The notes under the pieces are model-generated. The model was not told the origin of the DNA and did no database searches. It saw nothing but the letters and a program-made list of their open reading frames with translations. The position numbers and the translations under genes are program-made. Shown piece by piece: positions 36,826 to 44,198 of a stretch of DNA of 48,661 nt (its first letter is position 1; each line of letters begins with the position of its first letter). Origin of the DNA: an uncultured Methylococcaceae bacterium (GTDB taxonomy: Bacteria > Pseudomonadota > Gammaproteobacteria > Methylococcales > Methylomonadaceae); contig CAIPPE010000220.1 in NCBI GenBank assembly GCA_903866825.1, positions 1 through 48,661 of the forward strand, in the 5' to 3' direction.

Positions 36826-39654
36826 ATGAGTAACCTGATTCAACTTTTTCAAGACTCTTCATCCTTACAAGGTAGCAATGCCAGTTTCATTGAAGATTTA
36901 TATGAACGGTTTTTGGAAGATCCTGAATCAGTAGAACCCAGTTGGCAAAAAAAATTCAAAGAAATTCAACAGGGAGCATCTTATGAAACGGCTCATACGC
37001 CGATTGTTGAACGTTTTGCTCAACTTGCTATTAAATCGCCAGGAAGACTAGCCCAGTTACAGGGTTTTACTGAAGAAAGTGTAAAAAAACAGGCGGCCGT
37101 ATCTCGACTAATTAATCATTATCGGGTGCGAGGTCATCAAATAGCTAACAATAATCCCCTTGGTAAAAGTGTACAACCACAAGCAGACATGGATCCTTCA
37201 TACTATGGCCTGTCTGAGCTTGATATGGATACGCTTTTTGACACAGGCGCTCTTTTTGGGGGCATTGATCGATTGCCCTTGCGTAATATTATTGCAAATT
37301 TAAAAGCAATTTATTGCGGCAGTATCGGTTCTGAGTATATGCACATTGCTGATACTCAAATAAGACGCTGGTTGATCAATCGACTTGAAACAACTCAAGC
37401 CAAGTTAAATCTGGATGCAGAAAAAAAACACTGGTTGCTAAAGCTTTTAACCTCAGCCGAGGGTATTGAAAACTACTTACACCATCGTTTTGTGGGTCAA
37501 AAACGATTCTCGCTTGAAGGAGGTGAATCGCTTATCCCAATCCTTGATGAGCTTATACAGGTATCAGGACAAAAGGGCGTAAAAGAAATAGTTATAGGGA
37601 TGGCACATCGTGGTCGTTTAAATGTACTTGTTAATATCTTGGGAAAGAGCCCCGCAACTTTGTTTGATGAGTTTGCAGGAACCTCTACTTTATTACCTGG
37701 GGCTCGATCCGGCGATGTAAAATATCACATGGGATTCTCATCGGATGTATCAACACCGGGCGGTCCTGTACATTTAACACTCGCTTTTAACCCCTCACAT
37801 CTAGAGATTATTAATCCAGTCGTTGAGGGTTCAGTAAAAGCCCGTCAGGATCGTGCAGGAGAAGACGGTGTAAATACCGTAGTTCCAGTTTTAATTCATG
37901 GGGATGCAGCATTTTCAGGACAGGGAATTGTAATGGAATCTTTAAATATGTCACAGACCCGGGCATTTTACACGGGAGGTACAGTACATATCGTCATTAA
38001 TAATCAAATTGGTTTTACGACTAGTAATCCATTGGATGCCAGATCAACATTTTATTGTACAGATGTTGCCAGTATGATTCAGGCTCCAGTTTTCCATGTT
38101 AATGGTGATGATCCAGAAGCGGTTATTTTTGTAACCCGATTAGCCCTTGATTACAGAATGACTTTTAATAAGGATGTTGTTATTGATCTTATTTGCTATC
38201 GTCGTCTTGGACATAATGAAGCGGATGAACCAGCGACGACTCAGCCGGTCATGTATAAAAAAATTCGAAAACATAAAACAACCCGGAAGCTTTATGCTCA
38301 AAAACTAATCAGTGAAGGGGTTCTTAGTACACAACAATCAATTGAAATGGAGCAGGAGTATCAAAAACTGCTTGAAGCCGGCCAAGTTGTTTCAAGGCCA
38401 GTATTAAAAAATCCGGGCTATACCTATACGAATCAATGGAATAAATTTCTCAATAAACATTGGGATACGCCATCTAAGACAGCTATTTCTCTGGATTATT
38501 TGCGCTTTTGTAATGATAAAATGCAAAAATTGCCAACCGGGTTTGAGTTGCACCCTAGAGTAGCCAAGGTTATGGAAAACCGCCGCAAAATGGCTGCAGG
38601 TGCCTTACCTCTGGATTGGGGATTTGCTGAAAATTTAGCTTACGCGAGCCTACTTTTAGAAGGACATCCTATTCGTTTAACCGGGCAAGATGTGGGCAGA
38701 GGAACCTTTGTTCACCGTCATGCTGTGTTACATAATCAAATCCATAATAAAACCTATACACCTATTAAACATTTAGATAAGGAGCAAGCTAGTGCTCAAA
38801 TTTTCGACTCGCTTTTATCCGAGGCAGGCGTTTTAGGTTTTGAATATGGATACAGCACAACAACACCTAATACTCTCGTTATCTGGGAGGCGCAATTTGG
38901 TGACTTTGCCAATGGTGCTCAGGTGGTTATTGATCAGTTTATCAGTTCAGGAGAAACGAAATGGGGACGTTTATGTGGATTAGTCATGTTGTTACCTCAT
39001 GGATTTGAAGGGCAGGGGCCAGAACATTCATCAGCCAGATTAGAGCGTTATTTACAGCTTTGTGCTGAACATAATATTCAGGTTTGTAATCCAACAACAC
39101 CTGCGCAAATCTTCCATTTATTACGTCGCCAAATAATACGCCCTTATCGTAAGCCGCTTATTGTCATGAGTCCTAAAAGCCTGCTAAGACATAAGCTTGC
39201 CGTTTCAACACTTGAAGATCTTACAGCGGGCCATTTTCAACCAGTAATTGGTGAACAGGATAAACTTAATTCAAAGAAAGTAACCCGGTTTATTTTATGT
39301 GCAGGTAAGGTTTATTACGATTTATTAGAGACAAGAAACCAGGATAAGCTTGAGCATGTCGCTATTGCTCGTCTTGAGCAGATTTATCCTTTCCCGGAAA
39401 AATTACTTAAAGCAGAATTAGCAAAATATCCTAATTTAAAAGAGTTTATTTGGTGTCAGGAAGAGCCCAAAAATCAAGGTGCATGGTACCAAACCAAACA
39501 CCATTTTACAGATAATGTATCAGCAAACATAAGTGTTACTTATGCGGGTCGTGACGCATCTGCAGCACCGGCTGTAGGCAAATTTCACGTTCATATAGAA
39601 CAACAAAAAGCTGTGGTACAAGCAGCTTTATATGGCAATCCTTCAGGAAAATAA
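36826..39654 (+). CDS. sucA: 2-oxoglutarate dehydrogenase E1 component
   Basis: Thiamine-diphosphate-dependent decarboxylase of the TCA cycle. The 942-residue product matches the family length (about 935). It has the N-terminal [21 protein letters not shown] segment, [13 protein letters not shown], the ThDP/Mg site GDAAFSGQG ... NNQIGFTT, the [15 protein letters not shown] segment, [20 protein letters not shown], and [24 protein letters not shown]. All key segments are present, so this E1 looks catalytically competent. It is followed at once by sucB and an E3-like gene. A gap of about 215 bases upstream probably holds the promoter. Confidence 0.97.
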
Positions 39655-39655
39655 A

Positions 39656-40918
39656 ATGAGCATTGAAGTCCTAGTCCCTAACCTACCCGAATCAGTTTCT
39701 GACGCCACACTAATTAACTGGCACAAACAAGCAGGGGATTCGGTTACCAAAAACGAAAACCTTGTCGATCTTGAAACAGATAAAGTTGTACTTGAAGTGA
39801 CCGCACCAGAGTCTGGCATTCTTGCTCAAATTCTTAAAGAAAGCGGCGCTATTGTTACTAGTGGCGAGTTGCTAGCCATTGTCGAAGTGGGTGATGCGAA
39901 ACCAGTTGTTTTAAATGAGGTCGAATCTGTTTCTCCTAATAGTTCAAATAATGATGAGGATTTGCCACTAAGTCCATCAGTACGCCGTCTGATCAATGAA
40001 AATGCATTAGATCCTTCACAGATCAGCGGTACAGGGAAAAGTGGTCGTTTAACTAAAGCAGATGTTTTAGAACATCTAAATAAACCGACGCCTGCACCTG
40101 CTGCATCGGTTACCAATACTGCACAAAAAACTGTTTCAGATCCTGAAAAGACAGTAAGTGCCCCTAAATCGGTTATAGAAACGGCAATAGATACCAATAG
40201 CAGTGTCGCCGTAGGTTTACGACCTGAACAACGTGTTGCAATGACTCGCTTAAGAGCAAAAGTCGCAGAACGATTATTACAAGCACAACAAAATGCGGCA
40301 ATGCTAACGACTTTTAATGAAGTCAATATGCAAAATGTCATTGATCTTCGCAATCAATATAAAACTCGTTTTGAACAAAAACATGCCGTTAAATTAGGCT
40401 TTATGTCATTTTTTGTTAAAGCTTCCATTGAGGCTTTAAAACATTTTCCAGCCATCAATGCATCTATTGATGGAAGTGACATTATTTACCATGGTTATTA
40501 TGATTTAGGTATTGCCGTGAGTACGCCAAGAGGATTAATTGTTCCTGTCTTACATGATGCTGACCAACTGGATTTTGCAGGCATTGAGAAAAGTATTGCT
40601 TCGTTTGGAGAAAAGGCGAGGGCAGGTACATTAAGCTATGATGACTTGAAAGGAGGTACATTTACGATTACCAATGGTGGTGTTTTTGGTTCAATGCTAT
40701 CAACTCCAATACTTAATCCACCTCAATGTGCTATTTTAGGTATGCATGCGATTAAAGAACGCCCAGTAGTTGAAAATGGTCAAATTGTCATCAGGCCTAT
40801 TATGTATCTGGCTTTATCTTACGATCATCGCTTAGTTGATGGCAGAGAAGCAGTACAATTCCTAGTCACAATCAAAGAATGCTTGGAAGCTCCTGCTCAT
40901 CTTTTACTTAACATTTAA
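39656..40918 (+). CDS. sucB: Dihydrolipoyl succinyltransferase E2
   Basis: E2 core of the 2-oxoglutarate dehydrogenase complex, 420 residues. Domain order: lipoyl domain (1-78) with lipoyl Lys43 in [11 protein letters not shown]; a flexible linker; the peripheral subunit-binding domain [35 protein letters not shown] (about 104-140); an Ala/Pro/Thr linker; and the catalytic domain from about 185, with the active-site [10 protein letters not shown] (His and Asp) near the C-terminus. The ATG at 39656 is one base after the sucA stop codon. The presence of a normal peripheral subunit-binding domain means it should bind an E3. Confidence 0.96.
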
Positions 40919-40922
40919 TATT

Positions 40923-42356
40923 ATGTTAAAAAAGCAAACGCATTATGATGTCATAGTAATTGGTGCTGGACCAGCAGGTTTCTCAAGCGCAGTTCGTTGT
41001 GCTGAACTTGGTTTAAAAACCGCTTGTATTGATAATAAGCGCGATAAAAATAACCATGGACGCTTAGGTGGTTCTCACCTAAATACTGGCGGTGTCGCCT
41101 CTATGACATTGTTAGATTCCGCTAAGATATTTTATCAATTGACTCATGAAGCAGCAAAGCATGGTATAGGTGCAGAAAATATTTCAATTGATATGCCTAA
41201 GATGATTCGAAGAAAAGATAAAATCATTGAAGACATTAATCATAAAATGATTGGGCAATTTGCACATCATAAGGTTGACCATATTTTGGCAAAAGCCAAA
41301 CTTTTGGGTGACCGTCAAGTTGAAATAACTACAGAAGACTCACATTTAAAATCCATACTTAGGGCTACACATATAATTTTGGCTTCTGGGTCAATACCAA
41401 TTAAATTGTCCTGTGCACCAATAGATAATGAGTTTATTATCGATTCAAAGACTGCTTTAAATTTAGAAGTCATACCTAAAAAACTGGCAATTATTGGTGC
41501 CGGAGTAGTTGGGCTTGAGTTAGCAAGTATATGGAATAGGCTGGGGGCGGAAACCGTATTGCTTGAGGCACAAGAGAACTTTTTATCTTTACTGGATCAG
41601 CAAATATCTGGTGAGGCTTATCGAATATTTCAAAGCCAAGGCTTTGATTTACGCTTGGGTGCTCGCGTGATTTCAGCAAAAAAAGGTAACAGAAAAGTCA
41701 CTATTGAGTATCAAGATCAGGAAGGCATCCATACTCTACGTATTGATAAGCTAATCGTAGCTTGTGGACGAAAACCTAATACTGCAGAATTAGCCGCCCC
41801 TGAAGCTGACTTATTGTTAGATGATAATGGTTATGTTTATGTTGATGAAAATTGTAGAACGAATTTACCTGGAGTTTATGCAGTTGGTGATTTGACATTA
41901 CTGGGGCCAATGTTAGCTCATAAGGGAATAGAAGAGGGGATTTTCGTCGCTGAGAGCATTGCTGGAATAGATAATGTAATTAATTACGATAATATGCCCA
42001 GTGTTATTTATACCGAACCTGAAATTGCATGGGTTGGTCAGACTGAACAAGCTTTACGTGCTGCTGGTGAATCGATAAAAGTTGGAATCTTTCCCTTGAG
42101 TTCAACTGTTCGTGCTTTAGCTTTAGATAAAGCTGAGGGCTTGGTTAAAATAATTGCTCATGCAGAAACTGATAAAGTTTTAGGTGTTCATATTATTGCT
42201 ACGCAAGCATCAGAACTCATAGCGGAGGCAGTATTGGCAATTGAGTTTTCTGCAAGCAGTGAAGACTTGGCAAGAACTATCCATGCCCGTCCAACATTAT
42301 CCGAATCGGTTCATGATGCAGCTACGATTCTTGGTGGTAGAGCGTTAAGTAAATAA
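40923..42356 (+). CDS. Dihydrolipoyl dehydrogenase-like flavoprotein lacking the redox disulfide
   Basis: A 477-residue member of the class I pyridine-nucleotide disulfide oxidoreductases, placed 4 bases after sucB as E3 should be. FAD motif IGAGPAGFSSAVRCAELG (13-30), NAD motif IIGAGVVGLELASIW, second FAD motif GVYAVGDLTLLGPMLAHKG, and the C-terminal dimer domain with the catalytic base region HARPTLSESV are all present. However, where E3 has the redox-active CLNVGC, this protein reads HLNTGG (His52 and Gly57): both cysteines are gone. The frame is uninterrupted and the rest is well conserved, so it is not a decayed gene. It cannot perform the standard disulfide chemistry on dihydrolipoamide. 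It may be a structural E3, or use a different electron route. Confidence 0.9.
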   Translation: MLKKQTHYDVIVIGAGPAGFSSAVRCAELGLKTACIDNKRDKNNHGRLGGSHLNTGGVASMTLLDSAKIFYQLTHEAAKHGIGAENISIDMPKMIRRKDKIIEDINHKMIGQFAHHKVDHILAKAKLLGDRQVEITTEDSHLKSILRATHIILASGSIPIKLSCAPIDNEFIIDSKTALNLEVIPKKLAIIGAGVVGLELASIWNRLGAETVLLEAQENFLSLLDQQISGEAYRIFQSQGFDLRLGARVISAKKGNRKVTIEYQDQEGIHTLRIDKLIVACGRKPNTAELAAPEADLLLDDNGYVYVDENCRTNLPGVYAVGDLTLLGPMLAHKGIEEGIFVAESIAGIDNVINYDNMPSVIYTEPEIAWVGQTEQALRAAGESIKVGIFPLSSTVRALALDKAEGLVKIIAHAETDKVLGVHIIATQASELIAEAVLAIEFSASSEDLARTIHARPTLSESVHDAATILGGRALSK

Positions 42357-43928: not shown

Positions 43929-44198
43929 TTAAGGGAATTTCTTATAAAAGCTTTCTCGACTACCCACACGCAAAAACTGAATCGTATCTTTTTCATAGTA
44001 AATACCAATGCGGTAGCGATAGTCGAATTTAATACGATAAAAACCTGAGAAGCCAGATAATTCTTCAAGATTCGCTAATTCAGTTAAACTTCCAATCTGT
44101 TTGCTCTCAAGCAAAATCTTTTGTATTTTTTCAAGAATACGTTTGTCAGTGATTTTTTGAGTGTCTTTAACAAAGCTTTTACTGATTTCGATATTCAT
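43929..44198 (-). CDS. RelE/ParE-superfamily toxin
   Basis: An 89-residue small basic protein of the RelE/ParE fold: N-terminal EISKSFVKDTQKITDKRILEKIQKIL helices, then ELSGFSGFYRIKFDYRYRIGIYYEKDTIQFLRVGSRESFYKKFP, with the typical YRIGI strand, an arginine-rich centre and the RVGSRESFY C-terminal motif. RelE members cut ribosome-bound mRNA; ParE members inhibit gyrase, and I cannot say which applies. It overlaps the upstream antitoxin-like gene by 4 bases (ATGA), the usual coupled arrangement. Confidence 0.85.
   Translation of the reverse strand: MNIEISKSFVKDTQKITDKRILEKIQKILLESKQIGSLTELANLEELSGFSGFYRIKFDYRYRIGIYYEKDTIQFLRVGSRESFYKKFP

Follow-up and report, generated by a model that had tools for sequence, protein, structure and literature searches.

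The catalytic roles of the two redox-active cysteines, the base histidine and the flavin-side lysine of dihydrolipoyl dehydrogenase (E3) are established. By analogy, LpdA of M. tuberculosis is an earlier example of an E3 homologue that does not act on lipoamide: according to the accessible part of PMC2440308, it has no lipoamide dehydrogenase activity and displays transhydrogenase and quinone reductase activity. The E3-like gene described here bears on a standing dispute, that over a full oxidative TCA cycle in gammaproteobacterial methanotrophs. For 2-oxoglutarate dehydrogenase in these organisms, an excerpt of PMC5023229 describes the genes as present and the activity as "never demonstrated", and in M. 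alcaliphilum 20ZR the activity is entered as N.D. while pyruvate dehydrogenase (PDH) was measurable (PMC5802761, in the portion available). Later work cited in the available portion of PMC10602362 gives a complete cycle for M. buryatense on methane, and a complete cycle was suggested for Methylomonas DH-1 in the sections available of PMC6373157. A word search for "dihydrolipo-" found no occurrence in the texts of PMC5802761, PMC10602362 and PMC6373157, and at the level of titles and abstract openings the open-licence PMC literature yielded no account of an E3 without these cysteines from a methanotroph.

The stretch analysed, hereafter the window, is a contig of 48,661 nucleotides from an uncultured Methylococcaceae bacterium with a draft genome of 4.28 Mb. 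It carries sucA, coding for the E1 subunit of 2-oxoglutarate dehydrogenase (36826..39654, + strand, 942 aa, apparently intact), and sucB, coding for E2 (39632..40918, +), which overlap by 23 bp. SucB contains an 11-residue lipoyl motif, the peripheral subunit-binding domain and the catalytic motif YDHRLVDG. Only 4 bp past sucB lies a single, uninterrupted E3-like open reading frame of 477 aa (40923..42356, +), so that, as expected of the E3 subunit of the 2-oxoglutarate dehydrogenase complex, the gene is encoded together with sucA and sucB. We refer to its product as the pseudo-E3. Further along, on the opposite strand (43929-44198, -), an 89-aa open reading frame resembles, by eye, a RelE/YafQ-type toxin-antitoxin component.

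Residues 52-57 of the pseudo-E3 read HLNTGG, where E3 enzymes have the redox-active disulfide motif CLNVGC: H52 (codon 41076..41078, +) replaces the first, interchange cysteine and G57 (41091..41093, +) the second, charge-transfer cysteine. The lysine of the CLNVGCIPSK motif is replaced as well, by M61 (41103..41105, +). In an alignment with the Pseudomonas fluorescens E3 (1lpf, HPTLSE), the position of the catalytic-base histidine is occupied by R456 within HARPTLSE (42288..42290, +), whereas the histidine is present in all seven Cys-bearing sucB-linked orthologues and in all six PDH-type E3s aligned; the glutamate of the His-Glu dyad is retained at position 461. Thus, four catalytic side chains are missing rather than two, and the window protein has neither the CxxxxC disulfide nor the complete dyad of the HPTLxE motif. 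The Rossmann motifs for FAD and NAD(H), by contrast, are all there: GAGPAG at residues 14-19 (40962..40979, +), GAGVVG at residues 192-197 (41496..41513, +) and the second FAD motif at G322-D323 (41886..41891, +). The initial annotation of this DNA had rightly reported the clean frame, the HLNTGG sequence and the intact nucleotide-binding motifs; it had recognized the loss of both cysteines but overlooked those of the histidine and the lysine, and its description of the HARPTLSE base region as intact was mistaken. Judged by these residues, the window protein would be devoid of dithiol-disulfide chemistry, and dihydrolipoyl dehydrogenase activity has almost certainly been lost.

The initial annotation had allowed that resequencing might restore CLNVGC. 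The window is indeed one contig of a draft in 345 contigs, but the identical HLNTGG occurs in independent assemblies, including that of the isolate M. psychrophilus Z-0021, and CLNVGC reappears in none of them, which leaves a sequencing or assembly artefact as a negligible prospect. We rejected sequencing error since independently assembled relatives and named isolates lack the first cysteine, and close relatives lack both.

The predicted fold is that of a normal E3. An AlphaFold2 model built from a 22-row alignment has a pLDDT of 88.4 and a pTM of 0.86, and its best match among solved structures is Pseudomonas aeruginosa LpdG (5u8v), with a TM-score of 0.96, an RMSD of 1.6 and 45% sequence identity. 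The protein also passes the E3 model TIGR01350 with 434.5 bits against a cut-off of 408.8, so in both sequence and fold it belongs to the E3 family. Because it passes this model, automatic annotation would name the gene a normal lpd, and metabolic models built on such an annotation would be wrong about it. We do not class the window protein as a functional E3, because the disulfide and the dyad, two defining features, are absent; it appears instead to work like an E3-fold pseudoenzyme.

The losses extend far beyond this genome. Our family sample comprised 141 genomes of the window's GTDB family. For residue counts we used 137 aligned rows from 136 genomes, 133 of which reach residue 52 while four fragments fall short (G010 contributes a pair of fragments, and a single one of them reaches the site); four duplicate loci (L017, L035, L036 and L047) and four PDH-type rows were not counted. 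The first cysteine is present in 0 of 133 rows, its place being taken by Tyr (56), His (48), Phe (27), Val (1) or Asn (1), that is, by Tyr, His or Phe in 131. Lys61 is likewise found in 0 of 133 rows, all of which have Met, Ile, Leu, Val or Phe. The second cysteine, on the other hand, is retained in 85 of 133 rows, and the base histidine in 93 of 132. Arginine replaces this histidine in 30 rows, all within the 33 rows of the window clade (genera g1 and g33) that reach the base; Asn (1) or Ser (2) stands there in the remaining three. Forty named loci (L057-L096), many of them the same records as genomes in the family sample, were tallied apart. Thirty-nine bear the name Methylobacter, Methyloprofundus, Methylococcaceae or Methylococcales and one the name Acidobacteria, and isolates among them include M. 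psychrophilus Z-0021, M. luteus IMV-B-3098, M. tundripaludum SV96 and M. marinus A45. The window thus probably stems from a methanotroph resembling Methylobacter. All 38 named methanotroph loci that extend as far as residue 52 lack the first cysteine (Tyr 24, His 12, Phe 2); L092 stops short of the site, and L095, the acidobacterial locus, at 40% identity, has the cysteine. An alignment of homologues, as proposed in the initial annotation, thus shows the first cysteine lost in 133 of 133 rows and the second retained in 85, and what had been treated as a feature of one genome is a loss that is clade-wide and stepwise.

Two groups of loci show further changes in the active-site region. In seven loci of a g1 subclade (L028, L030-L034 and L051), three to four residues (LGGS) are deleted immediately before HLNTG, which shortens the flavin-side loop. 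In two g28 loci (L194 and L195), the pseudo-E3 evolves very fast, with about 48-50% identity to the query, long branches and a further scrambled active-site loop.

Outside the family, seven sucB-linked orthologues come from two other families of the order, f7 and f8; every one of them retains CLNVGCIPSK and HPTLSE, and each lies in the gene order sucA-sucB-E3. Families f2, f5 and f6 each contribute one orthologue without the first cysteine, and the f2 and f5 copies adjoin sucB. The f6 protein (L046, genome G052) is distant and reads TSLLNGC in place of CLNVGC; it keeps Lys61, and in the stretches read around its locus no SucA or SucB match was found. Across the class, the pattern Tyr/Phe/His-[LIVM]-N-[A/G]-G-C was found in one of 369 genomes, itself a member of the window's family; as this pattern misses other spellings, including that of the window itself, it is weak evidence of restriction.

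In a 76-row tree, in which the placement of the long f6 row is unsure, a single branch with 100% support (200 bootstrap trees) has every row with both cysteines on the same side. This split fits one ancestral loss. Parsimony on a 144-row FastTree computed with the active-site columns removed places the change from Cys to Tyr at residue 52 once, followed by 11 later changes: eight exchange one of Tyr, Phe and His for another, and three lead outside this set (to Asn, Val and Ser). The loss of the first cysteine was thus most likely a single event at the base of the clade. The second cysteine and the base histidine appear to have been lost later and several times, Cys57 about eight times (to Ser six times, to Gly once and to Thr once) and the histidine about seven times (to Tyr five times, to Arg once and to Phe once), although these counts are rough, as the same reconstruction contains one reversal from Ser to Cys and two from Tyr to His. 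The aromatic residue at position 52 looks to be under selection, since drift should have yielded more Ser, Gly and Arg there, and Ser and Gly are indeed seen at position 57.

The selective constraint on the gene is relaxed and yet strong. IQ-TREE codon models gave an omega of 0.069 for the window clade (12 rows); the M. tundripaludum type (16 rows) has 0.105, compared with 0.021 for the Cys-bearing outgroup, which has only five rows and, like the other groups, a dS near saturation. The values for the pseudo-E3 are therefore 3-5 times that of the outgroup, while SucA (0.044 in the window clade, 0.032 in the outgroup) and SucB (0.074 and 0.045) themselves exceed their outgroup values in the window clade, by factors of 1.4 and 1.6. 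Pairwise counts within the window clade gave medians of 0.064 for E3 (32 pairs), 0.064 for SucB (42 pairs) and 0.039 for SucA (45 pairs). The ratio of E3 to SucA protein divergence is 1.59 in the family (700 pairs) against 0.79 in the outgroup (10 pairs), and this ratio and the raised omega together argue for relaxation. Of 137 core positions, defined as identical in all Cys-bearing (7 rows) and PDH-type (6 rows) E3s examined, the 31 rows of the window clade keep 81 at ≥95%, and the other 97 family rows keep 68. The protein is thus under purifying selection in its clade and mostly maintained, although the gene is broken or absent in some genomes. The initial annotation had named a substitution confined to one strain, with dN/dS near 1, as the result that would overturn its interpretation; neither the omega of 0.069 nor the family-wide pattern agrees with this, and we rejected neutral decay of one strain on both grounds.

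Conservation is strongest around the nucleotides. The FAD residues Gly14 (132/132), Gly16 (131/131), Gly322 (136/136 rows reaching the site) and Asp323 (136/136) and the NAD residues Gly192 (133/134), Gly194 (134/134) and Gly197 (134/134) are virtually invariant in the family. The same holds for Glu199 (131/134), for an acidic residue at position 215 (Glu or Asp, 134/134), and for His333 and Lys334 (both 136/136). These patterns suggest that the nicotinamide side has been conserved and the thiol side remade.

We consider it unlikely that the gene is a relic in slow decay, whose E3 duty has moved to a PDH-type Lpd and which lingers in the operon until it is lost. Such a history would account for the relaxed rate, the repeated losses of Cys57 and His456, and the long branches in g28 and g35. 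It would also suit the patchy distribution: the gene was not found in 29 of the 141 family genomes, six of them scattered and 23 in three genera, where it is missing from every sampled genome (g22, nine; g23, nine; g31, five). A copy 3' of sucB in G066 (g19; L196, 1259-2667), a genome of five contigs, is split over three reading frames and represents either a broken gene or read errors. Against decay stand omega values of about 0.07-0.1, the near-invariant FAD and NAD motifs, the aromatic residue held at position 52, and the presence of an orthologue in 112 of the 141 genomes (in G066 and G119 by partial match). Moreover, single stops flagged in rows of g16, g25 and G075 still leave open reading frames of 474-478 aa. 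In G073 (g26), a full-length pseudo-E3 is encoded on the contig of sucA but at least about 0.4 Mb from it by the shorter way, with no sucB within the 4.7 kb read around it, and the gene is hence not merely carried along by the operon. Full-length copies with sucB missing from the stretch read occur at two g26 loci, L140 (G073) and L125 (G121), which indicates that the gene can persist outside the operon. Overall, the pseudo-E3 probably retains some function.

If the pseudo-E3 is inactive in lipoamide chemistry, SucAB has to obtain E3 activity elsewhere. The initial annotation had proposed a search for a second lpd with CLNVGC, and the window genome holds two, one directly after the PDH E1-E2 genes (on contig C255) and one on contig C342. 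Using the C255 Lpd as query (E < 1e-120), we found a PDH-type E3 in 134 of the 141 family genomes but not in G113, G128, G151, G158, G159, G168 and G172, of which three are less than 80% complete and four are drafts 90-97% complete. The cysteine motif is intact in all 30 PDH-type E3 loci read. A SucA match is present in 139 of the 141 genomes, including 22 of the 23 in g22, g23 and g31, the genera without the E3-like gene, and in all six g22 and g31 genomes read, sucA-sucB has no adjoining E3 gene. Given the two intact Lpds and these 22 sucA-bearing genomes, an intact PDH-type Lpd probably supplies E3 to SucAB in trans. A dedicated 2-oxoglutarate:ferredoxin oxidoreductase was considered as an alternative route and rejected, as the window genome has two weak matches to TIGR03710, both below the cut-off. 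In the two g23 genomes read, sucA has neither sucB nor an E3 gene beside it (L204 and L205). Two g31 loci (L206 and L207), whose genomes have no E3-like gene, have a sucB with YNHCL[IV]DG at the E2 catalytic motif, in contrast to YDHRLVDG.

These findings also bear on the initial suggestion that the protein, sitting where the functional E3 should be, might cause an incomplete TCA cycle. In its simple version, this idea is opposed by the intact E3s; the motifs looked for in SucA and the lipoyl, subunit-binding and catalytic motifs of SucB are kept, and the sucAB genes without an adjoining E3 gene in the six g22 and g31 genomes counter it further. The pseudo-E3 alone probably does not break the TCA cycle. 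The same annotation had offered a non-catalytic E3 or one with a new activity, and here it had the right short list; its extension to a cause of the incomplete cycle is not supported.

Our preferred reading, towards which we lean with some reserve, is that the pseudo-E3 is the operon E3, vertically inherited, which lost its first cysteine, most likely once, and has been kept as a flavoprotein that binds NAD(H), has no dithiol and is tied to 2-oxoglutarate dehydrogenase. In the ancestor of the group, the dihydrolipoyl dehydrogenase of the sucAB operon would have lost the first redox cysteine, most likely in one event, and the gene would then have been retained without dithiol chemistry while SucAB drew E3 activity from the PDH-type Lpd in trans. 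NADH would approach the flavin from the conserved side, and two residues, one hydrophobic and one aromatic (Tyr, His or Phe), would shut the thiol side. With the thiol side closed and the NADH side open, the protein would either pass NADH electrons to a non-thiol acceptor or be a non-catalytic subunit that binds NAD(H) and SucB. We are slightly inclined to think that the job of the protein uses NAD(H) at the flavin, with two close rivals, a brake and an NADH:acceptor reductase, within that reading.

As a brake or scaffold, a pseudo-E3 dimer would occupy the subunit-binding domain of SucB, exclude active Lpd and thereby lower the flux through 2-oxoglutarate dehydrogenase both in vivo and in extracts; NAD(H) might tune this effect. 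We consider this a tentative possibility. It agrees with the 4-bp distance from sucB in the window and with the closeness of the two genes elsewhere, as 123 of 137 family rows have sucB within 100 bp. Near the C-terminal interface, on what we take to be the face that binds E2, Glu431 is kept in 128 of 132 rows and Glu435 in 129, and the SucB binding domain is kept as well. This domain, however, also persists where there is no pseudo-E3, in the genomes of g22 and g31 that were read, and conservation on the nicotinamide side exceeds what a pure plug would need. The brake would further fit the reports cited above of an activity not demonstrable despite the genes (PMC5023229) or entered as N.D. 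(PMC5802761), as far as those excerpts go.

Equally tentative is a dithiol-free NADH:acceptor reductase with a putative acceptor site, acting on a quinone, as a diaphorase or on oxygen, in the manner of LpdA and perhaps only co-expressed with the complex. The kept NAD and FAD sites, a thiol side blocked by aromatic and hydrophobic side chains, and the full-length copy that G073 keeps away from sucAB are what such an enzyme would lead one to expect, and LpdA, with the activities given in the excerpt of PMC2440308, offers a parallel. On the other hand, the closest proteins in both sequence and fold are E3s such as Pseudomonas LpdG rather than LpdA, and the NCBIfam model for NAD(P)H-quinone dehydrogenases of the LpdA type (PRK07845) is matched with only 234.7 bits against a cut-off of 479.

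A residual or mixed E3, reducing lipoamide through a monothiol or through a heterodimer that combines, for instance, the cysteines of an Lpd with the base of the pseudo-E3, would fit the persistence of Cys57 and His456 in many genera outside the window clade. It is nevertheless highly improbable, as the window protein has neither residue and an intact Lpd only about 33% identical makes a mixed dimer unlikely.

The pseudo-E3 is of note in being clade-wide, mostly kept in the operon and tied to the standing TCA question. More speculatively, it may have replaced E3 clade-wide as the partner that the operon supplies to the core of 2-oxoglutarate dehydrogenase, acting on the complex as a brake that responds to NADH or as an electron side-exit. 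If true, this would help to explain the elusive activity in type I methanotrophs with intact sucAB. In any event, the pseudo-E3 gene is a concrete, deletable target for testing E3 supply and the regulation of 2-oxoglutarate dehydrogenase in methanotrophs.

Among known systems, E3s of the Pseudomonas/Azotobacter type (LpdG 5u8v, 1lpf and 3lad) share fold, length and FAD and NAD motifs with the window protein, which differs from them in the replacement of both redox cysteines, the base histidine and the IPSK lysine. The sucB-linked E3s of f7 and f8 are its orthologues in the same operon order, but with their catalytic motifs intact. The two intact Lpds of the window genome belong to the E3 family too and, at about 33% identity, keep the GGVCLNVGC motif. 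M. tuberculosis LpdA (Rv3303c), like the pseudo-E3, is an E3-like flavoprotein, which, as described in the accessible part of PMC2440308, performs other NAD(P)H chemistry; it belongs, however, to a separate subfamily and is encoded with glpD2, outside a 2-oxoglutarate dehydrogenase operon, and its resemblance to the pseudo-E3 may be one of analogy rather than orthology.
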